Of a stretch of 64,000 bases of DNA, positions 50,512 through 64,000 are shown piece by piece. The position numbers and the translations under genes are program-made. The stretch covers positions 1 to 64,000 of the forward strand of contig CADDZH010000013.1 in NCBI GenBank assembly GCA_902812455.1. Reading direction: 5' to 3'. The number at the start of each line of letters is the position of its first letter. Position 1 is the stretch's first letter. Under the pieces are notes generated by a model that made no database searches, had not been told where the DNA came from, and saw only the letters and a program-made list of their open reading frames with translations. Source of the stretch: Chloroflexota bacterium (GTDB taxonomy: Bacteria; Chloroflexota; Ktedonobacteria; Ktedonobacterales; Ktedonobacteraceae).

Positions 50512-51831
50512 GTGAGTAACCAGCCGCACGTCGAGGGCGAGCTTACCCTTGCCCGCTCGCAAGCCTTGTTTCAGGAGGCGCAGCAGTTGCTCCCAGGTGG
50601 AGTGAATAGCCCTGTGCGAGCCTTTCGCGCTGTAGGTGGGACTCCTGTCTTTATTGATCATGGCAGCGGGCCGTATCTCTATGATGTGGATGGCAACCGT
50701 TACCTGGATTATGTGCAATCGTGGGGGCCAATGATTCTGGGTCATGCCTATCCAGGCGTGGTGGATGCAGTGGTAGAGGCGAGCAAGCATGGGTTTAGCT
50801 TTGGGGCGCCAACGGAGGCTGAAAGCGAGCTAGCAAGGCTGGTGATCGAAAGCGTGCCATCGATTGAAATGGTGCGCTTCGTCAATTCGGGCACAGAGGC
50901 CACGATGAGCGCCTTGCGACTGGCCAGGGCATATACGGGGCGCAAGAAAGTCATCAAATTCAGCGGGTGTTATCATGGGCATGCCGATATGTTCCTGGTG
51001 CAAGCTGGCTCGGGTGTAGCGACAATGGGCCTGCCGGATAGTCCGGGTGTGCCGCCAGAGGCAACGAGTAATACCTTGATTGCACCTTATAATGATAGCG
51101 CGGCTGTGGAGGAGCTATTCCGGGCCTACCCTGAAGAGATCGCTGCGGTGATCGTCGAGCCGGTGGCGGCGAATATGGGGCTTGTCCCGCCCTTGCCAGG
51201 CTTCCTGGAAACGTTGCGTAGCCTGACGAGGACATATGGGGCTTTGCTGATCTTCGACGAAGTGATCACAGGCTTTCGGGTTGCGCTGGGCGGCATGCAG
51301 GAGCGGGCCGGTATCATGCCGGATTTAACCTGCCTGGGGAAGATCATTGGTGGGGGGTTACCTGTTGGCGCGTATGGTGGGCCGCGAGCCATTATGGAGT
51401 ATGTAGCGCCTGCCGGAACGATGTACCAGGCGGGGACGCTTTCCGGTAACCCGCTGGCCATGGCAGCAGGTATTGCGACGCTGAAAGAGTTGCGCAAGCC
51501 TGGGCAATACGAGAATCTGGAGCAGAAAAGCCGGATACTGGGTGATGGTATTGCGCAGGTGCTGCGCGAAACAGGCATACCGGTACAGTTCAACAGGCTT
51601 GGCTCTCTCTTCTGCCTCTATTTTACTGCCCAACCGGTAGTGAATTATGCTGATGCCAGGACAGCAGATACGGCCAGGTACGCGCGGTTCTTCTGGAAGA
51701 TGCTGGCTCGGGGTGTCTACCTGCCGCCTTCACAGTTCGAGACCTGCTTTATTTCATTGGCGCTGGAAGATGCGATGATTGAGGGGACTGTGAGGAGCAT
51801 AGAATTGACGTTACGCGATATTGCGGAATGA
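50512..51831 (+). CDS. hemL: Glutamate-1-semialdehyde 2,1-aminomutase
   Basis: A 439-aa PLP enzyme with GTG start. Motifs: [63 protein letters not shown], and [17 protein letters not shown] with the Schiff-base Lys277. It converts the hemA product to 5-aminolevulinate. Only 3 bases separate it from hemQ. Confidence 0.96.
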
Positions 51832-51898
51832 GGAACGAGGGCGAGGGTGGCCGATGGCGAAGTCTCGCCCCTACCCTCAATTTGCCAGGAGTAGAATC
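51832..51898. repeat. Palindromic module before hemB
   Basis: Contains GGGCGAGGGTGGCC and TCTCGCCCCTACCCTC, able to pair as an imperfect hairpin; a relative lies near 14453. It could be an intra-operon RNA-stability element. AGGAG at the right end serves hemB. Confidence 0.5.
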
Positions 51899-52879
51899 AT
51901 GAGTACATTTCCTATGGTGCGTTTGAGGCGTATGCGCCAGAACGAAGCACTGCGCAGCCTTGTGCGCGAAACGCACCTCAGCGTCGATCAATTTATTTAC
52001 CCACTGTTTATTGCTGAGGGCATTCATGAACCGCGTGAGATCTCGGCAATGCCCGGTATTGCACAGTGGCCGCTCGAATACCTGGGACGCGAAGCTGAAC
52101 GCATAGCAGGCCTGGGAATCCCTGCTGTGCTACTGTTCGGCATTCCGGTGGACAAGGACGAGGTTGGCTCGCAGGCCTATAACCCAGAGGGTATTATCCA
52201 GCAGGCGATCAGGCGACTCAAGGCGGCTGTACCTGAACTGGTGGTGATGACGGATGTGTGCCTCTGCGAGTACACGAGCCATGGGCATTGCGGGGTCATT
52301 CACAATGGCGATGTGCAAAATGACGAATCATTGAAGTTGCTGGCGCAGATGGCGCTGTCACACGTGGAGGCAGGTGCCGATCTTGTGGCTCCATCGGATA
52401 TGATGGATGGCCGGGTTGGCGCGATCCGGCAGGCGCTAGATGAGCATGGCTTCAGCCAGACGCCGATCATGGCGTACTCGGCCAAGTTTGCTTCCGGCTT
52501 CTATGGTCCGTTCCGTGAGGCGGCGGAATCGGCTCCGCAGTTTGGCGACCGCCGCTCGTACCAGATGGACCCGGCGAATGGGCGCGAGGCGCTGCGCGAA
52601 GTGGAGCTTGACATTGCGGAGGGGGCCGATATTGTGATGGTCAAGCCTGCGCTGGCCTACCTGGATGTGATCCGGCAGGTGCGCGACCGGTGGAATGTGC
52701 CCGTTGCGGCGTACAACGTGAGCGGCGAGTTTTCGATGATCAAGGCGGCGGCGGAACATGGCTGGATCGATGAGCGGCGCATCGTGATGGAGGTGCTGAC
52801 GAGCATCCGCCGTGCGGGCGCGGATATGATCATTACCTATTTCGCGCCTGATGTGGCGAGATGGCTAAAAGAGGAGTGA
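51899..52879 (+). CDS. hemB: Delta-aminolevulinic acid dehydratase (porphobilinogen synthase)
   Basis: A 326-aa enzyme. The catalytic Lys pair is Lys196 ([16 protein letters not shown]) and Lys249 ([11 protein letters not shown]). The active-site Cys cluster [13 protein letters not shown] (Cys121, Cys123, Cys131) marks a zinc-dependent form. It condenses two aminolevulinates to porphobilinogen. The ATG at 51899 follows AGGAG. It is the last gene of the haem cluster; a transposon end begins 4 bases after its stop, so any genes that once followed have been displaced. Confidence 0.96.
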
Positions 52880-52883
52880 GAGC

Positions 52884-53000
52884 TGTGGATTTTGACTTTG
52901 CACTAGAGCAGCACTGGCTTTGCAGTAGAGCGAGCAGTGGTTTGCACTAGAGCAGCATCGGCTATGCAATAGAATGCGCACCTTTGCAAGAGAGCGCCTC
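52884..53000. mobile_element. Tn7-like transposon end with five TnsB-type binding repeats
   Basis: The end starts TGTGGATTTTGAC, as Tn7-like elements start with TGT. Five direct repeats follow, with consensus TTTGCACTAGAGCAGCA. Their TGCA cores lie at 52899, 52921, 52943, 52965 and 52985, so spacings are 22, 22, 22 and 20 bp. The first and third copies are identical; the fourth and fifth are degenerate. Regular arrays of this kind bind the TnsB transposase in Tn7-like and CRISPR-associated transposons. The orientation puts the cas operon inside. The opposite end and the target duplication are not visible in this window. Confidence 0.82.
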
Positions 53001-53369
53001 TCACCAGCCTGCCAAAAAGGGCTGCTCCAAACGCAGCCACAAACTCATCCTTTCTGGCAAAAGCTCGCTGCTCTCGAGTGGGGAGAAGCATGGCGCAGAA
53101 GGACGCATTCCTCCTGCTCCCCACGGGGAGGAACCGTTGCTCTTGCTGCGAGCAGGGAATGATGTCTTCCTCTTCTGAAGAAGAGACGATCCACTGCACT
53201 ACCTCAGCGCCTGCCAGGCTGCAAGCACCCGTTCCTCGGAAGCCTGGCAGGCGTGTACATCGGGGGGGTTGCCCAGGGGAACACACAGCAGATCTGCAGG
53301 AAGATGCAGGGCCATCGCAAGCTGAACGAGCGCTCGCCTTAAGAGTTTGCCAAAACTGCGCATCCTTCC
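53001..53369. other. Non-coding subterminal region with hairpins
   Basis: 369 bases between the repeat array and cas5. It holds a 13-bp perfect stem CGCCTGCCAGGCT (53208-53220) with AGCCTGGCAGGCG (53241-53253) and a 20-nt loop, and a shorter stem CTCTTC-TGAA-GAAGAG near 53171-53186. The first could terminate the cas operon or be part of a small RNA. Long frames here only continue the shadow of cas5. No CRISPR repeat was found. Confidence 0.5.
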
Positions 53370-54095
53370 CTACTCTCGTCCAAGAGCAGCAGAAAATGCT
53401 TGCCGTATCAGCAGTTTTCCACTCCCGTGCCGCACCTGCTCGATTAGCGGCCACACATAGACATCCAGGCGCAGGGGACTCTTGGAGCGTCCTCCAACGA
53501 GCGGCATCACGTCGTTCCATGCAACGCTTCCGTCTCGGAATTCCGAGAGAATGCAGGAGAAGAACGGACGCAGGTGGGTCTGCCCTTGCAAGAGACGCAG
53601 GGGCAGCACACATTCCTCTACCGGTGGAACGCTTTCCTGGATACCCGTACACCAGGCAAGCGAACTGCCTTGCCCCCAGTAGCCAATCATGCGCAAGACC
53701 TGACGAAAGGCGTCTTGCAGGGGTCTCGGAATCTGGATGTAGGCCGTCATGAGTCCTTCCGCATGGGCGACTTCGCGATAGATGGGCGCTTCGCTGAGTC
53801 CCTGGGTTTTCTCCTCTGCCTTGTAGGCACGCAACACCTGAAGTGTAATCGCCACGCGCTCCGGCGGGCGAATGTGGATGGACATCGTGCGAATGGATGG
53901 AAACAGGACGGACTGCACGTACTCGGTGCCGAACGCTTCTATCCCGGCGCGAATAAGCGCCAGGCGCACCGTCGCTGGCCCCGGTGCCGGTAAGGCCAAT
54001 GCGCTGGTGATGCTGCTCATCGGGACGCGACAGGAATAGGTGGCAGGAAGATGATAGTCTGCTGCCAGCCAGGTGAGCGATGACGCATCCCTCAT
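53370..54095 (-). CDS. cas5: Cas5-family Cascade subunit
   Basis: A 241-aa protein starting MRDASSLTWLAADYHLPATY. The N-terminal half has the Cas5 look: strand YSCRVPMSSITSALALPAPGPATVRLALIRAG (PAPGPATVRLAL corresponds to the PPxTxxGxL loop), then RVAITLQVLRAYK. The C-terminal part is diverged. It is identified partly by position after cas7 in a Cascade operon. Cas5 binds the crRNA 5' handle. AAGGAG precedes the ATG at 54095; a longer frame to 54167 overlaps cas7. Last gene of the operon. Confidence 0.78.
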   Translation of the reverse strand: MRDASSLTWLAADYHLPATYSCRVPMSSITSALALPAPGPATVRLALIRAGIEAFGTEYVQSVLFPSIRTMSIHIRPPERVAITLQVLRAYKAEEKTQGLSEAPIYREVAHAEGLMTAYIQIPRPLQDAFRQVLRMIGYWGQGSSLAWCTGIQESVPPVEECVLPLRLLQGQTHLRPFFSCILSEFRDGSVAWNDVMPLVGGRSKSPLRLDVYVWPLIEQVRHGSGKLLIRQAFSAALGRE

Positions 54096-54150
54096 GCGGG
54101 TTGCTCCTTCCTCTTTTCGACTGTTGGGTGCGATCACGCACCCGATCCTC

Positions 54151-55101
54151 TCAGCCGAGCGTGTCACACGCGCAAGGTCTGGCCGGGTGTGTGGTGTCGA
54201 TCAAGGCGCGCATCTGCGTGTGGAACTTGTCGATGGTGTCAAAGGTAGAGACGCTGCACGAGTCACTCGCCAGGGCGCAGAGACGCGGGATGAAGTCGTC
54301 CTGGAGCGCCGAGTAGATGGGGGCACGTCCGGTACTGCTGCGGGCGACAATCACTCCGTGTAATCCTGTCAGGTGTGGCAGCATGGTGGCCGTGAGCGCT
54401 CCTTGCGGACTGAGCAGGCAATCGCGCAGCGCCATCAACACTGCGCGATGCCGCCGCACTCGTTCCTGGTCGTCGTCGACGACGAGCTTCCACTTGTCCG
54501 TGTCCATGCCGATCCCCGCGCACTTATAGCGCACGCACAGCGCATACTCACCGGAACGCGCCGTCATCTTCATCAGCATTTGTCCCTCTTCCTTCGAATC
54601 CCCGGCGCGCGTGAACAACTGCGCCGTTTCCTGATGCCGCTCGGGCAGCGCGAGCGCGAAGGAGAACTCGACCAGGGAGTGCTTGGAGAGGCGATTGCGG
54701 GCCTCGCTACTCCCATCACTGGCGGCGTTTTTCGCGGTGACGAGAAATCCGTGCGTATCGCACAAGCCGCAGCCGCGCACGATCTGCTCGATGGTGAGGT
54801 TCCGGAACTCCGCCCGGTCGATGAGTGCCGCCGCACGGCGCGCGTCGCGCACTTTGCAGGCCGGGCAGAGCGGGCTGCCCGCCGCTTCGAGATATTCGGC
54901 GAGCAAGGTGGCATGAGCGTGCTTGGCGATATTGCCGCTATAGGCATCCGTTTCCGTGCCGTCGGCGAGCAATTGGCGGCGTGGCAGGAGGCGGTTGGAA
55001 CCGTTGTTGCCTGCATTGCTCAAGCTCTGCGCTTGCCACGCCACACGCACGTTCACGGATACTTCGTAGGTGGGTTGGGTGTTCTGTTCCCGTTCAGTCA
55101 T
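54151..55101 (-). CDS. cas7: Cas7 (DevR-family) Cascade backbone subunit
   Basis: A 316-aa protein of the DevR/Csa2/Cst2 Cas7 group: YEVSVNVRVAWQAQSLSNAGNNGSNRLLPRRQLLADG in part at the N-terminus, SGNIAKHAHATLL, two CxxC pairs (CPAC 79-82, CGLC 111-114) that could hold zinc, KHSLVEFSFALALPE, and LPHLTGLHGVIVARSSTG. Cas7 subunits form the helical filament along crRNA. The DevR type is typical of I-A/I-B-like and MYXAN systems. It overlaps cas8 by 8 bases. Confidence 0.9.
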   Translation of the reverse strand: MTEREQNTQPTYEVSVNVRVAWQAQSLSNAGNNGSNRLLPRRQLLADGTETDAYSGNIAKHAHATLLAEYLEAAGSPLCPACKVRDARRAAALIDRAEFRNLTIEQIVRGCGLCDTHGFLVTAKNAASDGSSEARNRLSKHSLVEFSFALALPERHQETAQLFTRAGDSKEEGQMLMKMTARSGEYALCVRYKCAGIGMDTDKWKLVVDDDQERVRRHRAVLMALRDCLLSPQGALTATMLPHLTGLHGVIVARSSTGRAPIYSALQDDFIPRLCALASDSCSVSTFDTIDKFHTQMRALIDTTHPARPCACDTLG

Positions 55102-56785
55102 GGTCGTCTCCTTGCTTCTCTATTGGATTCTCGGCAATGGTGGTGGTCCGCTCGCTGCTCCCTCCCGCGCCGTCCTGCGCCTCGAGGCGCTCTGACGGAG
55201 GCTGTGCTAGCGCAGCAAGCAGCAGGAAAAGCAGTCGCCTGAGCTGGGAAGCATCCTGTTCGGTCTCCTCCAGGCGTGGATAGCGCAAGGCCGAAAGCAG
55301 CACCAGGAATCCGGCAATCGTATGCGGACTAGCTTGCTTGACATCCTCTAGCAAGAACGCGAGATCATCCTCGGATGGCACCACCATGAACTGGGATTTC
55401 GCGGCAGCCACCTGACACTCCTGCGCCGCGAGGGCGAGTGTGTGAATCAACTGGTCGATGGTCTGGACGGACTCGAACTCCTCGACCAGATCCCGTAAGG
55501 ATGCGGGGTTGACCTGGCCCAGGAGCCGCAGTGCATGGCCAAAGCGGAGCGTCCCCGCTTTTTGCTCAAGAATCTTCCTGAGCAGGGAGGGAGTCGATGC
55601 ATCCATGTGCGTTGTCACCTCTTTTACTTCTGCGAGTCGGTACGGACGGATGGCGTCTTTCGCGTGGTGGACGCGCCTTGCCACCTCAAGCAGGTGGGCA
55701 GTCCACCTGCTCAGCGACCTGATGCGCAGCGCATCGATCAGTGCATCGATCTCACACGCGCGGCGCCCCGGTTCGCCCGTGAGCAGCATCCGCCAGAAGG
55801 AGCGCAGCCCTTCCCTCTCCTGGGCCGATAGCAAGGAAAGCCAGGTGAGGTCAAGGCATCCGTGATCGCGCGGGATCGGGGCTCTCGTCCCCTGCGTCTG
55901 GATAGTGTGATAGGCCAGCCCTTCCCATCGCGCGCGCACGCCTGGGACGGCTGTGGTATAGGTCAACCACTGGACAAGCAGCGCCTGGTGGGCTTCCGCC
56001 TCGACCGGGACGAGCAACGGCAGTCGCGTGTCGCGCTCGAGCGTAATCCACTGCGCTTGCGGAACGTAGCAATTCACCAGGTCGCCGCCCACGCGCTGTG
56101 CGCGCAAGAAGCGCGCGGCCCCAATGGAGGCGAGCAAGACGGCGAAGTTCGTTCCCCGTATCGTCACCTGGGTTTTCTGAGAAACGAGCCCGTCGCTTCT
56201 CAGTCTGCGCGTGGAGTAGCTGAACGAGGGATCCATCATCATGACCAGGGAGACGTCTCGCTGGGCATCGGTGATGGAGGTCGGCACCGGGATGGCAGGC
56301 GCTCCGAGGGCGTAGTCCTGCAGGATGCGTTCGAGCCAGCTTGCTGCCCCATGCAATGGCTCCCTGGCGACGACCTCTTTCCACCGGGCGAGCGCGAGGC
56401 GCGCTTTCTTGATGGAAAGCTCAGCCGTGGGGTCATTACGTCGCGCCTTCCACAAGAGATCTGCCATGGACAGGGCACGCACGGCGCCAGGGGTCGTAAA
56501 GAGGACCGTGAGCAGGCCGTCAAGATTGGCAACTGGAACCGGGATGCCAGCATCAGAAAGCCGGACTGCTGCTACTTCCTGTGGAGCCGGGAGGGCCAGC
56601 GCCTCATCGACGAGGTCAAGAGAGCCGGAAGGCTGCGCCCAAACGTATGCTGTGAGGGTGTAGGAACAGCCTGTGTCCGTGATCTCTACCGGTTTTCCAC
56701 ACGCCTGCGCGAGCAGAATCCCCAATCCATAGGCGTGGAGCAGATCAAACAACAGTGCCCCCGTTTTGACCACACACCACTCCAT
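55094..56785 (-). CDS. cas8: Cas8-like large Cascade subunit
   Basis: A 563-aa protein starting MEWCVVKTGALLFDLLHAYGLGILLAQACGKPVEI in part, which is the start pattern of Cas8a1/Csx13-type proteins. No HD or helicase motifs are present. The C-terminal third is helical (EDDLAFLLEDVKQASPHTIAGFLVLLSAL), like the small-subunit-like tail of Cas8. The role inferred is PAM recognition and Cascade assembly. Start at 56785 with AAGGAGGG; the frame upstream to 57046 is antisense-like overlap with cas6. Assigned by position, length and weak pattern. Confidence 0.78.
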   Translation of the reverse strand: MEWCVVKTGALLFDLLHAYGLGILLAQACGKPVEITDTGCSYTLTAYVWAQPSGSLDLVDEALALPAPQEVAAVRLSDAGIPVPVANLDGLLTVLFTTPGAVRALSMADLLWKARRNDPTAELSIKKARLALARWKEVVAREPLHGAASWLERILQDYALGAPAIPVPTSITDAQRDVSLVMMMDPSFSYSTRRLRSDGLVSQKTQVTIRGTNFAVLLASIGAARFLRAQRVGGDLVNCYVPQAQWITLERDTRLPLLVPVEAEAHQALLVQWLTYTTAVPGVRARWEGLAYHTIQTQGTRAPIPRDHGCLDLTWLSLLSAQEREGLRSFWRMLLTGEPGRRACEIDALIDALRIRSLSRWTAHLLEVARRVHHAKDAIRPYRLAEVKEVTTHMDASTPSLLRKILEQKAGTLRFGHALRLLGQVNPASLRDLVEEFESVQTIDQLIHTLALAAQECQVAAAKSQFMVVPSEDDLAFLLEDVKQASPHTIAGFLVLLSALRYPRLEETEQDASQLRRLLFLLLAALAQPPSERLEAQDGAGGSSERTTTIAENPIEKQGDDHD

Positions 56786-56801
56786 CGAATCTTCTCCCTC
56801 C

Positions 56802-57605
56802 TTATCCAATGGCGATGCGCGTCGCACCCATACCGCACTCAGTGAAGGCCCCGACGCCTGCAAAGAAAGCGAACCGTGCCAGCGCGGCCAGCATCGCTCG
56901 TGCTGCAGAGGCGGATTGGCGGCACTCATAGCTGATCCAGCCGCGAAACCCGAACTGGACCCTCCCGTCGAGCAGGACCTGCGATGAGCGCAGGCGGTAA
57001 TCAGCGAGCACGACGCCTCCATCCGAGAGCAAGGGCAAGAGATCATGAGAGTCCAGAGGCAACGGCGGACCGCCTAGCTCCTGCCAGCGGCGCGCCAGCC
57101 CTGCAAAGAGAAGGCGCGGGACAGGAAAGTGAAAGCGTTGCTCTCCGTCGGCGCCAGCATCCGGCAGGAGCACTAGCGGCGAGCCCAGGTGCAGCTTGAT
57201 CGACTCCCCGTAGGGAGGAGCCAGGAAGTCTGCCCAGGTGGACAGTCCTGCCCATGCCGAGTGCGAGAGGCCTGCAGCCTCAATGCTATACTGGCGGATC
57301 CCAATCTGCAGCGGTGCAGGCACGGTAAGCGCGTCCAAGAGCAGTGGAACGGACAGCAGCCCTGCTTCTTCGAGGACGGTGACCCGGAGAGAGAGCCGGT
57401 GTTGTTCATCCAAAAGCAGCGTAGGTGTGAGCGGGGCAGGTGGTGCGTCGTCTTCCTGAATCGTGTGAGATGTTCCACTTCGTGCAGACACCGCTGCTCG
57501 CAGTTCTCTCAGCCTCGCCTCGCCCGTTTCCCATACCTCGTCCCACGAGGGCGCAGGCCCGGTGGATAACGGCTTGAGATGGATCACGAGGGCAACAAAG
57601 GACAT
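56802..57605 (-). CDS. cas6: Cas6 crRNA-processing endoribonuclease (operon copy)
   Basis: A 267-aa RAMP protein. The C-terminus has the Cas6 glycine-rich loop AGVGAFTECGMG (about 249-260) preceded by FGFRGWISYEC and a helix ARAMLAALARFAFF, matching the pattern in the second cas6 at 63436. The N-terminal ferredoxin half is diverged. It would cut pre-crRNA within the repeat and stay bound. It lies 3 bases after the transposase-like gene and 16 before cas8. Confidence 0.85.
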   Translation of the reverse strand: MSFVALVIHLKPLSTGPAPSWDEVWETGEARLRELRAAVSARSGTSHTIQEDDAPPAPLTPTLLLDEQHRLSLRVTVLEEAGLLSVPLLLDALTVPAPLQIGIRQYSIEAAGLSHSAWAGLSTWADFLAPPYGESIKLHLGSPLVLLPDAGADGEQRFHFPVPRLLFAGLARRWQELGGPPLPLDSHDLLPLLSDGGVVLADYRLRSSQVLLDGRVQFGFRGWISYECRQSASAARAMLAALARFAFFAGVGAFTECGMGATRIAIG

Positions 57606-57608
57606 GCA

Positions 57609-58820
57609 TCACCTCCCCGGTCGATGGGACCGGTAGCTTCCGTCGCGCCGCGCTAACTCACGGGCCATGGCCTGGCAGAGAATCTCTCCATCCAGGTAGA
57701 CCCAGATCGCTGCCTCGGTGTGCTCTGACCGTCGCACCGCAACCTGCGACCCGGCAAAGAGCGGCAGCAGGTCGTCAGCGTAGTGCAATCCGTCGTAGAG
57801 CACCTCTCCTTGCTGGAGAATTGCAGCATCATGCGGTGGGAGGAGCGCCCGCAGTGCCGGCACGAGGCCGGCCGGATCGCTTTGGTACCCGGTCAAGCGC
57901 CCAAAGCGGTGGTCGGCCTCCTCTCTCGTTCGCAGCGGACTCGTTCCATAGGCTCTGTTGAGCGCGCTCTCGAAGACGACCACCCATCGCGCACGCGCGA
58001 CCAGCAGGCGCGTGTGCAGGTCCGTCCACACCTGCTGGAGGTCCCCCACCAGCGGCGGGGAGGCTGAGGTGCGCTCTATGCTGATGCCGAGCGAGGCGCA
58101 CGCAGCTTTGCACGTCTCCGAAAGTATGCCTGTGGTGACAAGATGGGGTGGCACCTGCCAGACCAGTCCGCCTGCTCCTTGAGGATGCGGAAGACGTGCA
58201 TTCACCAGCGCATCATAGAGCGAGAGCGCAGCGAGTTCGGCCTCGGCCTCGTAGGGACCTTGCCGAAAGGCGAGCAGGCGCGCATGGGTTACATCGATGA
58301 CACCCACGAGGCCGTCGCGTTCGGCCTCGTCTTTGTCCTTGCCTTCTGTTGTGGCAGGCACGCCTGGAACGATTTCGCCGATCCACCATGTCGCATCGAG
58401 CCGCTCCGTCGTCACACTCGTCTGTTGGAGACGCTGCTCTTCCAGGTACAGGCAGATAGCCCAGATGGCTTCTTCATGGATGGGCGGCCGGTTTGCGCAT
58501 CGGGCCATGGCGTCGAGGATGCGCGTGACCATCTGGATACTCCGTGCCAACCGGGAACAATAGAGCGCCGCAATCCGCTCGTAAACGGAGAGCGTTACCC
58601 CGCGAAAGCGATGCTCGACCTCCGCGGGATGCGCCAGGCAGATCTCCGGGCCAAAGCGGCGCACCAGTTCACGCAACCGAGCGGTAGGAACGCTCCCTGG
58701 AACCGCATCCGTCTGCGTATCTCGTGCCGTACGCAGGAGTGCGGCGGCGTGCATCTGTTGGCAGAGCGGGAGCGTCAGTGGAAGATTGAACACGGAGGTG
58801 GAGCGGAACGGATTCGTCAT
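57609..58820 (-). CDS. TnsB/Mu transposase-like protein lacking the catalytic triad
   Basis: A 403-aa protein that follows tnsC with a 4-base overlap, where TniQ is expected. By eye it aligns with the core of the neighbouring TnsB. ERLDATWWIG (D142) matches QIDHTPVDV. GLVGVIDVTHARLLAF matches LTTCIDSRSRLVMA. LVWQVPPH (Q222) lies where TnsB has WVDNG, and GDLQQVWTDLHTRL (Q262) where it has GIVERFFGTLNTRL. The C-terminus AIWVYLDGEILCQAMARELA is a Mu-transposase C beta-barrel. Two of the three DDE residues are therefore replaced by Gln. It lacks the Cys/His zinc motifs of TniQ/TnsD. A DNA-binding or bridging role is inferred. The fold assignment is moderate and the loss of catalysis follows from it. 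Confidence 0.75.
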   Translation of the reverse strand: MTNPFRSTSVFNLPLTLPLCQQMHAAALLRTARDTQTDAVPGSVPTARLRELVRRFGPEICLAHPAEVEHRFRGVTLSVYERIAALYCSRLARSIQMVTRILDAMARCANRPPIHEEAIWAICLYLEEQRLQQTSVTTERLDATWWIGEIVPGVPATTEGKDKDEAERDGLVGVIDVTHARLLAFRQGPYEAEAELAALSLYDALVNARLPHPQGAGGLVWQVPPHLVTTGILSETCKAACASLGISIERTSASPPLVGDLQQVWTDLHTRLLVARARWVVVFESALNRAYGTSPLRTREEADHRFGRLTGYQSDPAGLVPALRALLPPHDAAILQQGEVLYDGLHYADDLLPLFAGSQVAVRRSEHTEAAIWVYLDGEILCQAMARELARRDGSYRSHRPGR

Positions 58821-59722
58821 GATTTGCTCGTCTTCTCTTTCGCTTTATGCCGTGCTTCGGAGGTATATTCATGGGGGCCTTTGGCTTCCGTCTCGGTTGG
58901 AGGATGCAGCGTGTCCGTGTAATACTGCTCCGGCTTTGTCATCATCCAAATATAGGCTTCGTCAATGAGCGCCGCCGTAATCGATGGGAGTTCCTCATCT
59001 CTTGCCATTTGGCTGGCGGTTGCCAGCAAACCATACAGGTTCCGCAAGGAGGGATTGACCTTCTGCCAGATCGCTGTCCCCATCTGGCGATCAGCCGGAT
59101 TCTCCGGATCATAGGTCCAGCAAGGAAGGATCAGCCCCGGGAGGACGGTGTCCAGCACTTCTTTCAATTCCAGGGGGACGAAAGGCATACGTAGTCCCAC
59201 ACGGCTGGAAAATTTCTGGTGCCGCTCAATCACACTCATGATGTTGGGCAGTCCGACCAGGACGATACGACACCCCGTCTTATCAAAGAGGTGTCGTAAT
59301 ACTTCGAAGCTATCCTCGTTGAGCCGGTCAGCTTCGTCGACAACTAGCAGGGTGATATAGTTCCGCTCAATGGCGGCCGCAGCTTCGTCGGCCATCTCAT
59401 AGATGTTGCTGCCCCGAGATTTTTCCAGGAGGCTGTCGAGAATCGTTTTGGCAAGCGCACGTGGGGTGGAACGAGGCATCACCTTGACTTTGATGGCGGT
59501 GGGCAACGCGGTCTGCGCGTGTGGGGCCAGACTGTCGAGATAGTACTGGGTGGCGATGGTCTTGCCCACGCCCGCAAGCCCGGTAATCACCCCCATCGTG
59601 GGTGAACGTCTTTCGGGGTCGGTGATCAGCCGCATAAACGAGCGGCATCGTCTGACATTCTTCGTCTCAATGACGGGCTGACCTGCTGGCAAATGATCTT
59701 CGGCAAACGGGTTGGTCGTCAT
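58817..59722 (-). CDS. tnsC: TnsC/TniB-type AAA+ ATPase
   Basis: A 301-aa AAA+ protein. Walker A is GLAGVGKT (48-55), Walker B is LLVVDEAD (124-131), followed by RIVLVGLPNI (sensor 1 region) and an Arg-containing helix SSRVGLRMPF. Size and motifs match TnsC/TniB, which form helical filaments on DNA, recruit TnsB and set target immunity. It overlaps tnsB by 4 bases (ATGA) and the transposase-like gene by 4 bases. Polar C-terminal tail. Confidence 0.93.
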   Translation of the reverse strand: MTTNPFAEDHLPAGQPVIETKNVRRCRSFMRLITDPERRSPTMGVITGLAGVGKTIATQYYLDSLAPHAQTALPTAIKVKVMPRSTPRALAKTILDSLLEKSRGSNIYEMADEAAAAIERNYITLLVVDEADRLNEDSFEVLRHLFDKTGCRIVLVGLPNIMSVIERHQKFSSRVGLRMPFVPLELKEVLDTVLPGLILPCWTYDPENPADRQMGTAIWQKVNPSLRNLYGLLATASQMARDEELPSITAALIDEAYIWMMTKPEQYYTDTLHPPTETEAKGPHEYTSEARHKAKEKTSKS

Positions 59723-61821
59723 GCGTCTTCTCGCTTTCTTCGTGCTTCCTCGCGCGCTGCCATGCGTTCGAAGAAATCGCCTTGCGACGTCGTCGCTTTC
59801 GGCGGAGCAGCGGCTTTCTCTCTCTGCTTGGGTTTCGATGGGGGCGGTGCCTGTTGGAGAGAACCTTCAGGCTGTTGGGCAGCACTCTCGTGATCGGCCG
59901 CTTCATGCTCTGCAGGATGGTGGGTGGAGTCGGAACCTTTGGACCATAGGGCAGCGATCTCGCGATCAGCCAAATCCGCTGCCTCGCGCGCCTTCTTGAT
60001 GCCGCGGCGGAGATGTTCTTTCTGTTCGCGTTTCGCCGTTCCCATGTCCTTTTGCGTGATGACCTGCGCATCGGTCGCCTTGGCCGTGCATATCCACTGG
60101 TGATCGAGAAAGACCTCGATCTCATCTGGCGCTCGATAGATGGGCTCCGCGCGCACCTCAACATGCTTGCCCACTAACTCAGGTATCAGAGCGTGCCAAT
60201 AGATGCGGTTGCGGTAGTGGATGCCATCCTTGGCGGCGACCCTGTCGTCAGGCTCTTTGAGCAGCACATCAAGGTCGCGGGGATCTGCGGGTTCCGCGTA
60301 ACAGTGCTTCTCCCAGTAGTCCAGAGGCGTTTCCCCCGTCTCGCTATGCACCTCCTGGTGATACTGGCGAATAAAGTCCCAAAAGCGCTCCTCCAGTTCG
60401 GCGAGCGTGAGTGTGGCCTTGGCGTGGGGGTTCCGCTCCTCGGTATTGGAGGCGACATAGCCGGGCTGGTCGGCCCACAGGCGAGTGTTCAGCGTCCCAA
60501 AGAAGCGCTCCACAATCCCTTTCTCCTGTGGGCGGTGTGGCTTGCAGGGATGCAGGTCAATCTGCAGCGCTTGCGTGAGTTGGTAGACATGGTGCGAGAG
60601 CAATTCAAGGCCGTTGTCCACCCAAATTTCATGCGGCTTGCCGCCATAAAGTTTCCGCTCCGATGTCAGGACCGCTTCTCGAATAGCGGTCGCTACCGTG
60701 TAGCGATCAGGGTGATCGTAGCCAAAGACCGCTGCCATCACGAGCCGGGAGCGGCTATCGATGCATGTCGTCAGCCAGGGCCGAACCTCCCCGCTTTTCG
60801 TCCGGTAGGGTTCACTGCGCAGGTCCTTGACCAACACGTCCACCGGGGTGTGGTCGATCTGATACGTAATGAGAAAACTCGCGCGCCGGAGGTGTTCCAT
60901 GCGCATCGTCACCTCGTAGCGATCGCGAAACTCCTCGTCCCGTCCGTCCGCCAGCAAAACTTCTGGCTCAGCTATTTCCGCGCAGATCTTGCGGACCTGC
61001 CATTCGCTCGGAGCCGGTTCGCCCAGCGCCTGAGCCTTCTGGCAGACGGCCTGATACACCGAGCGGACAGACTTGTTCACCTGAGAGAAGCGCACGCCCT
61101 GGATCATCTCGACCATCTGATCGGTAATACGGTGATGTCCGCCTTTGTCCGCTCGCTCCCTGGGCGCGAGTCCTGAGAGTCCAGTCTCACGGTACTGTTT
61201 GAGATACAGCCAGAGTGTGCTCGGCGCAATGCCTCCCTCTTTGGCGCGGGCCTCGACCTCCGCGCGCGACACCTTTGGCTTTGTAGCGAGGTCTCCGAGC
61301 AAGTCCCGGCGGCGGAAGGTTTCTTCCAACGCTTGCTCATCCAGAGCGCCCAGGGCAGGGGCTGGCGCTGGCTTCCGCTTCGGCCTGACTGTTTCTGGAG
61401 CCAGCTTTCGCGCCAGTCCCTTGGACCCTCCGACCTGGTAGCGGCGAATCCAGCGTTCCGCCGTGCGCAGGGACCAGCCATTGCGCTGTGCCAGGGCGGC
61501 CACCAGGTCGGGTGTGACGATGATCGCTTCATCCTCGGTCTCGTCCAGCAGACGCACGAGGTTGCCCAGTTGCGCCAGCCGCTCGGCAATGATCGCTTCC
61601 GTTTGCGCGTCAAGGGCCATCCAATCACGCGGCACAAGCCCGTCAAGGCCGTCTTGTTGATACGCGCGCCACCACGTCCAGAGGACCTTGAGCGGAACAT
61701 AGGTCGCGGCAGCGCGCTCGCGGAGGCGCTGATAGTCATAGGAGGCGCGAGAGAGGGGGCCCAAGAGTTTGAGGCGGCGGTGCGCCTCGCGAAGCGCCGT
61801 CTCTGGATCGCAGTGTTCCAT
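59719..61821 (-). CDS. tnsB: TnsB-type DDE transposase
   Basis: A 700-aa transposase. Two or three N-terminal HTH segments (YVPLKVLWTWWRAYQQDGLDGL; NGWSLRTAERWIRRYQ) bind the end repeats. The RNase H core has D323 (QIDHTP), D402 (WVDNG) and E438 (GIVERFFG), with 35 residues between the last two as in retroviral integrases. A Mu-type C-terminal barrel (HVEVRAEPIYRAPDEIEVFL) is followed by a long charged tail ending GDFFERMAAREEARRKRE, comparable to the hook that contacts TnsC. The ATG at 61821 has GGGAGAAAAG upstream; the frame from 62043 spans the hairpin region. First gene of the operon. Confidence 0.95.
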   Translation of the reverse strand: MEHCDPETALREAHRRLKLLGPLSRASYDYQRLRERAAATYVPLKVLWTWWRAYQQDGLDGLVPRDWMALDAQTEAIIAERLAQLGNLVRLLDETEDEAIIVTPDLVAALAQRNGWSLRTAERWIRRYQVGGSKGLARKLAPETVRPKRKPAPAPALGALDEQALEETFRRRDLLGDLATKPKVSRAEVEARAKEGGIAPSTLWLYLKQYRETGLSGLAPRERADKGGHHRITDQMVEMIQGVRFSQVNKSVRSVYQAVCQKAQALGEPAPSEWQVRKICAEIAEPEVLLADGRDEEFRDRYEVTMRMEHLRRASFLITYQIDHTPVDVLVKDLRSEPYRTKSGEVRPWLTTCIDSRSRLVMAAVFGYDHPDRYTVATAIREAVLTSERKLYGGKPHEIWVDNGLELLSHHVYQLTQALQIDLHPCKPHRPQEKGIVERFFGTLNTRLWADQPGYVASNTEERNPHAKATLTLAELEERFWDFIRQYHQEVHSETGETPLDYWEKHCYAEPADPRDLDVLLKEPDDRVAAKDGIHYRNRIYWHALIPELVGKHVEVRAEPIYRAPDEIEVFLDHQWICTAKATDAQVITQKDMGTAKREQKEHLRRGIKKAREAADLADREIAALWSKGSDSTHHPAEHEAADHESAAQQPEGSLQQAPPPSKPKQREKAAAPPKATTSQGDFFERMAAREEARRKREDA

Positions 61822-62113
61822 GGTCGCCACCGTCTTTTCTCCCGTTATAATAGTGATACTGAGGAATGCATCACCACTGACAGGCGCGTGAGCAGGGTGC
61901 GAGGCGGGGAAGCCATGGCAGGGAGGCAACGCCTCCCTGCCATGGCTTCCCCGCCACCTGCAGGCGCGTTGGAACGATGCGCCCATCGTTTTGATCAACC
62001 CGGCCTGCAGGCGCAGAAGAAAAGCGGTGATGCACAACCACAACTATCAGATATGCTACTAGTGTAAAATAGAACATATGTTCTTGTCAAGGGATCATCG
62101 AGAGGAGTTACCG
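61822..62113. repeat. Divergent intergenic region with giant hairpin and nested inverted repeats
   Basis: A perfect 25-bp inverted repeat with a 3-base loop spans 61903-61927 and 61931-61955 (arms begin GGCGGGGAAGCCATGGCAGG). It is enclosed by TGCATCACC (61867-61875) and GGTGATGCA (62026-62034). CCTGCAGGCGC occurs at 61957 and 62004. A TATTAT/TATAAC -10-like box points to tnsB just outside. The whole could be a regulatory cruciform between the operon and its regulator, or a small inserted element. Confidence 0.75.
62071..62084. promoter_or_regulatory. 14-bp palindromic operator upstream of the regulator gene
   Basis: AGAACATATGTTCT is a perfect palindrome 30 bases before the ATG of the HTH regulator, right after a -10-like TAAAAT (62065-62070). 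The location suggests autoregulation by that protein. Confidence 0.65.
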
Positions 62114-63079
62114 ATGAATTTCGGAACGTGGGTCCGAGCGCAGCGTGAGCGGCGGGAGATGGATGTGCGGGCCTTCGCGCGCCTCGTGGGGGTGGATGCT
62201 AGCACGATTAGCCGCATTGAGCAGGCGCGGTCGCAGGTGACGGTATGGACGGCGGTGCGTATATGCGAGCGCCTGAACGTGATGCCTGCCGATCTGCTGG
62301 AAGCGCTGCGGGGCAAGCGTCCGCCTTTCGCCGGGCGGCAGCAAGCAGGGCAAGAGGTGGATGTCGTGACGGTGGGAGATCTTGCAGCGTTTCTGCGCTA
62401 TATGCGCCGGAGCTTCCAGGAGGGATGTGCCTGGCTCACGAGCTTGCTGAACCAGGTTGCGGCGCGGGAAGATGATGGGCGTGCTACTCACGGTGGGAGT
62501 GTGCCGCTCATTGTGCCGGAGGATATCGAGAAGCTGCTCCAGGATTCGCATCTCTACCAGTTCAAAGTCCAGTATCCGGTGGCAATCACGGCGGAAGACC
62601 TCTGGGACATCTACCTGCGGGGAGGCGCGCTGACCCTCGTGGATATGGGGGCCTACCTCAAACAAGCGCGCCGCGCCAGGCGTGTCACACTCTCCGACCT
62701 GGAAGCGTCCGGCAAGGTGTCTGCGAGCGTCCTCTCGCGCTTAGAAACGGGTTCACTCGAACGGGTCAAGCTCATCGATGTGCTGACGCTGGATGAGCAA
62801 TTAGGGCAGGAAGGGAAACTGATGGCCCTGTATTGGCGCGCCTGCACCCCCATCAATGCGGTGGCCCGTGTCCATCAACGAGATCTCCAAACAGAGGCAC
62901 AGGGGTCTGGCGAAGGGCTTCGGCTGGAGCAGGAGTGGCGATTGATTGAGGTATTCACGACGATCTGTCGATGGCTGGCTTGCCTGGAGCCGAATGATCA
63001 CGCGTGGATGAGCGCCTTTCGACAGCGATGGAATCATGCTGCGGAGCAAGCTGACATGGCAAAAGACATGGCCATATAA
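62114..63079 (+). CDS. Double-HTH XRE-type regulator of the transposon
   Basis: A 321-aa protein with two XRE-like helix-turn-helix domains. The first is MNFGTWVRAQRERREMDVRAFARLVGVDASTISRIEQ in part at the N-terminus, and the second is YLKQARRARRVTLSDLEASGKVSASVLSRLETGS in part around 190-225. The rest is helical with no ligand motif. The ATG at 62114 has GAGGAG upstream; the frame from 62078 includes the operator. It is divergent from tnsB. Xre proteins control guide expression in I-F3 CRISPR-associated transposons, so a comparable role is plausible here. Confidence 0.85.
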   Translation: MNFGTWVRAQRERREMDVRAFARLVGVDASTISRIEQARSQVTVWTAVRICERLNVMPADLLEALRGKRPPFAGRQQAGQEVDVVTVGDLAAFLRYMRRSFQEGCAWLTSLLNQVAAREDDGRATHGGSVPLIVPEDIEKLLQDSHLYQFKVQYPVAITAEDLWDIYLRGGALTLVDMGAYLKQARRARRVTLSDLEASGKVSASVLSRLETGSLERVKLIDVLTLDEQLGQEGKLMALYWRACTPINAVARVHQRDLQTEAQGSGEGLRLEQEWRLIEVFTTICRWLACLEPNDHAWMSAFRQRWNHAAEQADMAKDMAI

Positions 63080-63135
63080 CGGCTTGATCACTTGTGTTTC
63101 TCGGTTGTGTTCGCCCTGGAAAAGCAAGGTGTGGA

Positions 63136-63456
63136 TGTCAAGCGCTCAGGCGCGATGAACTGTTTGGGAGCTGGCTGACCTGCTCCAACCAACCGTAGGT
63201 CTCGGTCTGGCTTCAAACGCTCAAGCGCGATCGTCTGTTTATCAAATCATCCTATCCACACCCGCCCGTCTCATGCCCGTCAGGCATCAAACGCTCAGAC
63301 GCGATGCAATCACTTGCAGCAGTGTGGCGAGGCCCGGCATACGCTGCTAGATCCACTGGCTTCAAACGCTCAGGCGCGATCATCCTTCCAGTGGTCCTGC
63401 TCCAGGACAATGGCAGCGGCACGCATATAGCTGCTTCAAACGCTCAGATGCGATCT
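63136..63456 (-). CRISPR. Degenerate CRISPR-like array of five repeats
   Basis: Five copies of a 26-bp unit whose consensus on the plus strand ends CTTCAAACGCTCAGGCGCGA. The TCAA cores start at 63138, 63213, 63287, 63362 and 63436, a constant period of 75, 74, 75 and 74. The second and fourth copies match at 25 of 26 bases, the others at 19-22. Read on the minus strand the repeat is ATCGCGCCTGAGCGTTTGAA, with a CGC/GCG stem and a TTTGAAGC end resembling crRNA 5' handles. The segments between are unrelated to each other. Period suits a type I array, but the conserved part is short and the spacers (about 48-49 bp) are long. Confidence 0.72.
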
Positions 63457-64000
63457 GCCTCCTTTCCTTTCTCCGAAAGCGCGTACCTGCCCCATGCCCA
63501 TGGTGGTCTTATACCCTACTCCTGCAAAATGCGCGAATGCTGCGAGTCGCACGAGGTGGGCAGCACGCTCCCCGTCCTCCTGGAGAGTATAAGTGCATGT
63601 CCCGACGAACCCTTTTTGCATGTACTTCGGATAGTGCAGGGTGTGTGTCGAGAGGTCACAGGCAGCGACGGTGACCTTTTGCCGAAGGAAGTTCTGCAAG
63701 GCCTGCTTCTCGATTTTCAGAGAGTCAGGAGCATAGCGATTCCAGGAGCGGACCAGGCTCTCCCACACCAGTGGTGGCTCTGGAAAGAGCGCGAAATATT
63801 TCCCGCTGATGTTAAAAGCCGTGGGGCTCACGAACGACAGCGTCACACTGTGACGCATAGGAATTGCGACAAGTTCCTCCCAGGAAGATCTGGTGGCCCA
63901 GCCGGTCATGTCAGCCGCAGAGGTCGAAAGCAGACGGGTAGCCTTGAAGCATGCCTCTCCAAGCCGGATCTTCAGTGGGCCGGTTTCGAGCAGCAAGGTG
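63436..64000 (-). CDS. cas6: Second Cas6 endoribonuclease (partial)
   Basis: The frame is open to the right edge of the window, so the N-terminus is missing; 188 residues are visible. It has a standard Cas6 pattern: SVTLSFVSPTAFNISGKYFALFPEPPLVWESLVRSW in part, KYMQKGFVGTCTYTL, AAFAHFAGVGYKTTMGMGQV. It is better conserved than the operon copy at 56802. The last codons (RSHLSV and the TGA) are read from the first CRISPR-like repeat, so the gene and array are physically fused. Confidence 0.88.
   Translation of the reverse strand, partial: TLLLETGPLKIRLGEACFKATRLLSTSAADMTGWATRSSWEELVAIPMRHSVTLSFVSPTAFNISGKYFALFPEPPLVWESLVRSWNRYAPDSLKIEKQALQNFLRQKVTVAACDLSTHTLHYPKYMQKGFVGTCTYTLQEDGERAAHLVRLAAFAHFAGVGYKTTMGMGQVRAFGERKGGRSHLSV

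Follow-up and report, generated by a model that had tools for sequence, protein, structure and literature searches.

In type I-F3 CRISPR-associated transposons (CASTs), CRISPR RNAs are directed at conserved sites in genes, guaC and yciA among them (PMC11406308). Type I-A CASTs, according to the section of a 2025 classification that treats them (PMC12669027), are found in Mu-like transposons without TniQ-TnsD and have had no experimental characterisation yet; a distinct interaction is expected in them because TniQ is absent. The CasMu-I group, to which its discovery paper (Altae-Tran et al. 2023, PMC10910872) gives one paragraph in the main text, consists of MuA, MuB, a helix-turn-helix (HTH) gene, a cas3-less type I-A system and casmuC within a transposon, and casmuC is described there as a paralogue of MuA that has become inactivated and whose product is predicted to interact with Cas8. 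In a literature search, the term casmuC was seen only in the discovery paper among the matches listed, and no CasMu-I study was recognisable by title or start of abstract under type I-A or Mu-type CASTs. Here we analysed a 64,000-nt stretch (the window) of contig CADDZH010000013.1 from a Chloroflexota bacterium of the Ktedonobacteraceae; the contig is 65,266 nt long, and the ~1.3 kb beyond the window lies outside the analysis. The element in this window is a further example of the CasMu-I group and not a new group. It is very likely a transposon of the Mu/Tn7 type that carries a nuclease-free type I-A Cascade and an array in which one spacer matches the adjoining hemB gene at its 3' end, and it was probably placed there by RNA-guided transposition.

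A homing spacer matching a site near one end is a trait of Tn7-like CASTs, and the element shares it, as a likeness in working and not in membership. Homing spacers were found in all three loci having both an array and a cas-side flank, namely the window (27/36 identical positions in hemB), L001 from a marine Chloroflexi metagenome-assembled genome (25/36) and L024 (32/36). Spacers were taken as the 36 nt from the nucleotide after the repeat handle. The L001 and L024 matches were first spotted by eye; the one in the window was detected by scanning the array region against the 200 bp that precede the transposon end. Left out of the count, with no element array in the stretches searched, were L009 (whose contig starts at casmuC), L010, L011/L012 (broken genes) and L025/L026 (broken casmuC). 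In real sequence, background maxima were 21 in 125,460 positions for the window, 26 (one position) in 136,426 for L001 and 20 in 105,296 for L024; other than the single 26 beside the L001 array, no position exceeded 22. When 32-nt windows were scanned, 24/32 positions agreed between 63245-63276 and hemB 52803-52834, a score reached by 0/200 single-base shuffles of the flank (best 22), and L001 likewise gave 24/32 with 0/200 (best 23). Upstream of the L001 array, L001:15499-15534 is 26/36 identical to the homing spacer and has no clear repeat at the expected offset; it is perhaps a decayed older homing unit. Between cas5 and the end, a candidate match in the non-coding tail (52981-53370) was rejected, as its 19/32 was reached by 85% of shuffles.

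The three matches share one geometry. All start at spacer nucleotide 1 and at codon position 1 of the target, lie on the sense strand and have their PAM-distal side (away from the protospacer-adjacent motif, PAM) towards the insertion. The gap from match to end is 52 bp in the window, 40 bp in L001 and 37 bp in L024, and the triplets before the target are GTG, GTC and GTG, respectively. The distance from stop codon to insertion is 4 bp for hemB in the window, ~31 bp in L001 and 22 bp in L024. The peptides encoded by spacer and target agree at 7/12 (window), 11/12 (L001) and 10/12 (L024) residues; in L001 the target frame, at the edge of the contig, is a fragment of 35 codons that ends in a stop, and the L024 target gene has no Pfam match. 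When the 11 spacers were compared crosswise with the three flanks on both strands, only the three cognate matches exceeded 20, and the remaining eight spacers reached at best 17-20 against any of the flanks. No phage match was found for the window array, and its two weak plasmid matches (Sphingobium, E 0.8, in an IS66 gene) were not taken as targets.

These matches argue for transposition guided by RNA through a Cascade of the DevR type (type I-A), as the original prediction for this locus had proposed; its further suggestion, that the architecture may represent a new group, fails because the same gene set was already in print in 2023 as CasMu-I (PMC10910872). Alternatively, the element could be a Mu-type transposon with Cascade as passive cargo, in which MuB or CasMuC alone choose sites behind genes and the spacer matches are defence remnants or chance. 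This would fit the lack of visible cas3 or adaptation genes, evidence drawn wholly from sequence, and the L010 locus, which has MuA, MuB and CasMuC with no adjoining cas genes. We nevertheless regard it as unlikely, given three cognate matches at one geometry with none in the other spacers or crosswise, and given the cas7 and cas8 homologues on another contig of the L010 genome.

Several observations weigh against guide-directed insertion. The homing matches come from only three independent loci, with mismatches at 9/36 positions in the window and 11/36 in L001, and with 24-nt windows the scores were reached by 0.5% (window) and 4.5% (L001) of 200 flank shuffles. The L010 end lies beside an FtsW/RodA-type gene, but no element array was found for L010, and a genome search with 115 bp of that gene's 3' end gave no spacer. 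None of the stretches read showed a second transposon end or a target duplication. At positions 26, 32 and 36 the window spacer agrees with none of the 31 hemB genes compared (see below), and the excess of mismatches at every sixth position, also given below, is partly confounded with codon wobble. Finally, what supports guide-directed insertion is at the level of sequence.

Mismatches between spacer and target are unevenly distributed. Over the three loci they fall at 12/18 of the every-sixth (6n) positions, at 4/18 of the other wobble positions (Fisher p 0.018) and at 8/72 positions elsewhere. Cascade leaves every sixth guide base unread. For comparison with hemB, 43/47 genomes gave a match, and the best 30 relative loci were used, which with the window make 31 genes. 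No gap is required to align the window spacer with the 3' ends of hemB in the 30 relatives, where it reaches up to 29/36 identities; its mean over the 31 genes is 24.4/36, versus 25.7 between hemB genes, and it agrees at 12/14 columns that are invariant among them. A single guide aimed at the end of a conserved coding sequence would be able to serve across species; mismatches are mostly on wobble bases (16/24), 12 of these at every-sixth guide positions.

The features of the element are collected in Table 1. Profile scans covered nine main frames of the window (Pfam, NCBIfam and PADLOC) and ten overlapping frames (Pfam), the latter with no match; other small frames lay outside these scans. With the cas8 and cas5 start codons set by the L001 homologues, MuA, MuB, casmuC, cas6, cas8, cas7 and cas5 form one minus-strand run, in which MuB overlaps MuA by 4 nt, casmuC overlaps MuB by 4 and cas7 overlaps cas8 by 8, and gaps of 3, 16 and 55 nt precede cas6, cas8 and cas5. 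This is exactly the order and spacing originally predicted, and the scans also bear out the repeat-bearing end downstream, the regulator and CRISPR-like repeats upstream (the minus-strand reading of the array had been missed) and the absence of cas3, cas1, cas2, tnsA and tniQ, none of which was found in the 19 scanned frames of the visible element.

Table 1 Features of the CasMu-I element and its insertion site in the window.
Feature	Position	Strand	Evidence
hemB (delta-aminolevulinic acid dehydratase, ALAD; host gene)	51821..52879	+	PF00490 E 4.6e-156; 3' end holds predicted guide target
Predicted protospacer in hemB	52796..52831	+	27/36 identical to spacer 3; GTG before it (52793-52795); background maximum 21 in 125,460 positions
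Cas-side transposon end	52884..52980		TGT terminus and MuA-site-like repeats spaced 22 bp
cas5 (Cas5a-like)	53370..54095	-	PADLOC Cas5a E 6.6e-10; 47% identical to L024 cas5
cas7 (DevR/Csa2)	54151..55101	-	PF01905 E 1.2e-26; TIGR02583 type I-A Cas7/Csa2 E 7e-15, below curated cut-off
cas8	55094..56785	-	One chain: Cas8a-like residues 1-396 and likely Csa5-like residues 403-504
cas6a	56802..57605	-	PF10040 E 1.4e-11; N-terminal HAA..LH motif missing
casmuC	57609..58820	-	RNase H and barrel domains of MuA/TnsB-type transposase, without conserved acidic triad; helical N-terminal domain
MuB/TnsC-type AAA+ ATPase	58817..59722	-	PF05621 TniB; PADLOC TnsC V-K; nearest solved structure ShTnsC
MuA/TnsB-type DDE transposase	59719..61821	-	PADLOC TnsB V-K E 1.3e-37; D323, D402, E438 (counted from 61821) conserved in 4/4 aligned
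Perfect inverted repeat, 25 bp, 3-nt loop	61903..61955		Between MuA start and regulator
HTH regulator	62114..63079	+	PF13560; divergent from MuA; 33% identical to each of the L001 and L024 homologues
CRISPR array	63132..63458	-	Five degenerate repeats, 74-75 nt spacing; four end GCGTTTGA(A/T)GC; read on minus strand
Homing spacer (spacer 3), first 36 nt	63248..63283	-	Matches hemB 52796-52831
cas6b, cut by window edge	63436..64000	-	PF10040 E 7.5e-21; similar gene adjoins L024 array (L024:9893-10789)

The gene set corresponds to that of CasMu-I. The MuA-type transposase has an intact DDE triad, invariant in the four transposases aligned, and is accompanied by a MuB-type ATPase matching PF05621 and TnsC models, by an HTH gene with homologues in L001 and L024, and by casmuC as an inactivated MuA paralogue, for which the only profile match was the Mu-transpos_C barrel. 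Type I-A Cascade genes are represented by the Cas7 and Cas5a matches and by Cas8. The profile scan of cas8 gave only a weak PADLOC Cas8a match (E 0.007); the protein folds as Cas8a with a likely Csa5-like domain in the same chain. Of the two ends of a CasMu-I transposon, the cas-side end was seen and the other was not seen within the window. The inverted repeat upstream of MuA is a possible operator or terminator.

Among solved structures the window transposase is nearest by sequence to type V-K TnsB, and ~1.3 kb of contig lies past the window edge, where a Tn7-like CAST could carry tniQ and tnsA. This is extremely improbable, as neither gene was found in nine L024 proteins (Pfam) or nine L001 proteins (PADLOC), the other listed frames of these loci having been read by eye only; TniQ/TnsD was likewise not found in these proteins or in the 19 window frames.

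Relatives of the CasMu-I element were sought through its proteins. At E <= 1e-3, 104 CasMuC homologues were found among 7,996 scored candidates and 190 Cas8 homologues among 7,999, and a search of CasMuC against plasmids and viral contigs gave no match. A CasMuC-like gene occurs in 4/400 genomes of the phylum of L001 (one broken; a fifth genome has only a barrel-sized match) and in 3/158 genomes of one class (one broken; three more have only short matches). Short barrel-sized matches (G022, G321, G401, G403) and a weak 72-residue match (G452) were not counted as CasMuC. The order in L001 is HTH, MuA, two MuB genes, CasMuC, cas6, cas8, cas7, cas5, array and end, and in L024 it is HTH, MuA, MuB, CasMuC, cas6a, cas8, cas7, cas5, cas6b, array and end. 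The order from MuA to cas5 is thus common to the window, L001 and L024, except for the second MuB in L001, where two tandem MuB-type ATPase genes (L001:8058-9945) stand in place of one. Repeats spaced 20-22 bp are also present at the L001, L010 and L024 ends; no left-end motif was found in the first 8 kb of L001 when searched with the right-end unit.

Some relatives are split or degraded. In L010:1-4700, MuA (interrupted by an apparent insertion sequence) is followed by MuB and CasMuC and then directly by the end, which lies within ~10 bp of the FtsW/RodA stop, with no cas genes beside them. This genome (G061) has a split layout, with homologues of HTH, cas6, cas8 and cas7 on another contig (L023:1-4300). 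Outside the transposon, L010:14994-15336 holds a regular CRISPR array whose five repeats do not resemble those of the element. A fourth homing case predicted for L010 was dropped, the best other match being by eye an ordinary FtsW/RodA paralogue and not an array. Degraded copies with truncated cas6 or broken casmuC were seen in L009, L011/L012 and L025/L026; in L009 the start of cas6 breaks off after ~70 codons, and no cas7 match was found in G084 and G116, the genomes of L009 and L011/L012.

The window array lies beyond the regulator, unlike the arrays of L001 and L024, which lie between cas5 and the end. This position would suit an array and cas6b that form a separate host CRISPR system beside the element, or a cargo with its own role, an explanation that we find very unlikely: in L024 a comparable pair of cas6b and array, with a closely similar repeat, lies between cas5 and the end, and a spacer of the window array matches the site where the element itself is inserted. 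The repeat of L024 ends ATCGCGTTTGGGCGTTTGAAGC and has the GCGTTTGAAGC ending and the preceding ATCGCG in common with the window repeats. The shared repeat ending and the presence of cas6b beside the array in both loci make it most likely that the array in the window is part of the element despite its position.

The cas6b gene beside the array had been missed in the original prediction. The HAA..LH stretch of Cas6 has a catalytic role. By eye, this N-terminal stretch is missing in 23 of the 26 Cas6a homologues aligned (of 70 found), the window protein included, and is kept in P0289 (L001), P0290, P0292, L023, the L024 Cas6b and the broken L009 cas6. The L024 Cas6b matches the Pfam Cas6 N-terminal domain, and the Cas6a proteins of L024 and the window do not. 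Cas6a thus lacks HAA..LH in both elements seen with two cas6 genes (window and L024), which suggests a division of labour between Cas6a and Cas6b.

From the gene content, the one end and the spacer matches with their geometry, we infer the following course. Guides would be cut from the array transcript by Cas6b, perhaps together with Cas6a, and Cas7, Cas5 and Cas8 with its Csa5-like domain would form a complex that binds hemB next to GTG. CasMuC would stand where other systems have TniQ, as the adaptor between Cascade and the MuB ATPase. MuA, recruited by MuB, would then insert the element 37-52 bp beyond the PAM-distal side of the target, immediately after the gene. A wider proposal, which we hold to be evenly poised, is that CasMu-I is a TniQ-free CRISPR-guided family in which the dead transposase CasMuC replaces TniQ between a type I-A Cascade (with a Cas8a-Csa5 fusion) and the integrase. 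Resident guides would direct the element to the final codons of conserved genes such as hemB, on the sense strand, the codon phase placing wobble on the unread sixth positions. In the lineage with two cas6 genes one Cas6, its catalytic motif lost, would now serve as a structural or docking subunit and leave the cutting of guides to the other.

The CasMu-I homing spacers provide natural evidence for guided insertion in type I-A Mu-like CASTs, a group for which the 2025 classification section notes no prior experimental characterisation (PMC12669027). They supply a target and an orientation, together with a candidate GTN motif and a 37-52 bp spacing, and therefore make the mechanism and the part played by CasMuC directly testable, as well as the formation of cointegrates, which the original prediction would expect from the lack of TnsA.

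The window element can thus be set against known systems. Type I-F3, I-B and I-D Tn7-like CASTs mostly have a cas3-less Cascade and encode TnsA and TniQ, whereas in the window element TniQ and TnsA were not seen and casmuC is present. Type V-K CASTs are not known to have TnsA and use a single Cas12k effector with TniQ; their TnsB and TnsC are the closest solved structures by sequence to the window proteins, but the window element has Cascade and CasMuC instead of a single effector. CasMu-V (PMC10910872) is also a Mu-type transposon, with an array whose cryptic homing spacer matches near one end (68 bp reported), and differs in having an inactivated Cas12 where the window element has Cascade. 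CasMu-I itself shares MuA, MuB, casmuC, the HTH gene and a cas3-less type I-A system within a transposon with the window. The main text of the discovery paper, its supplements aside, names a homing spacer only for CasMu-V, and its passages on CasMu-I mention neither a second cas6 nor a Cas8-Csa5 fusion (PMC10910872); homing spacers thus appear to be a new addition to the description of CasMu-I.

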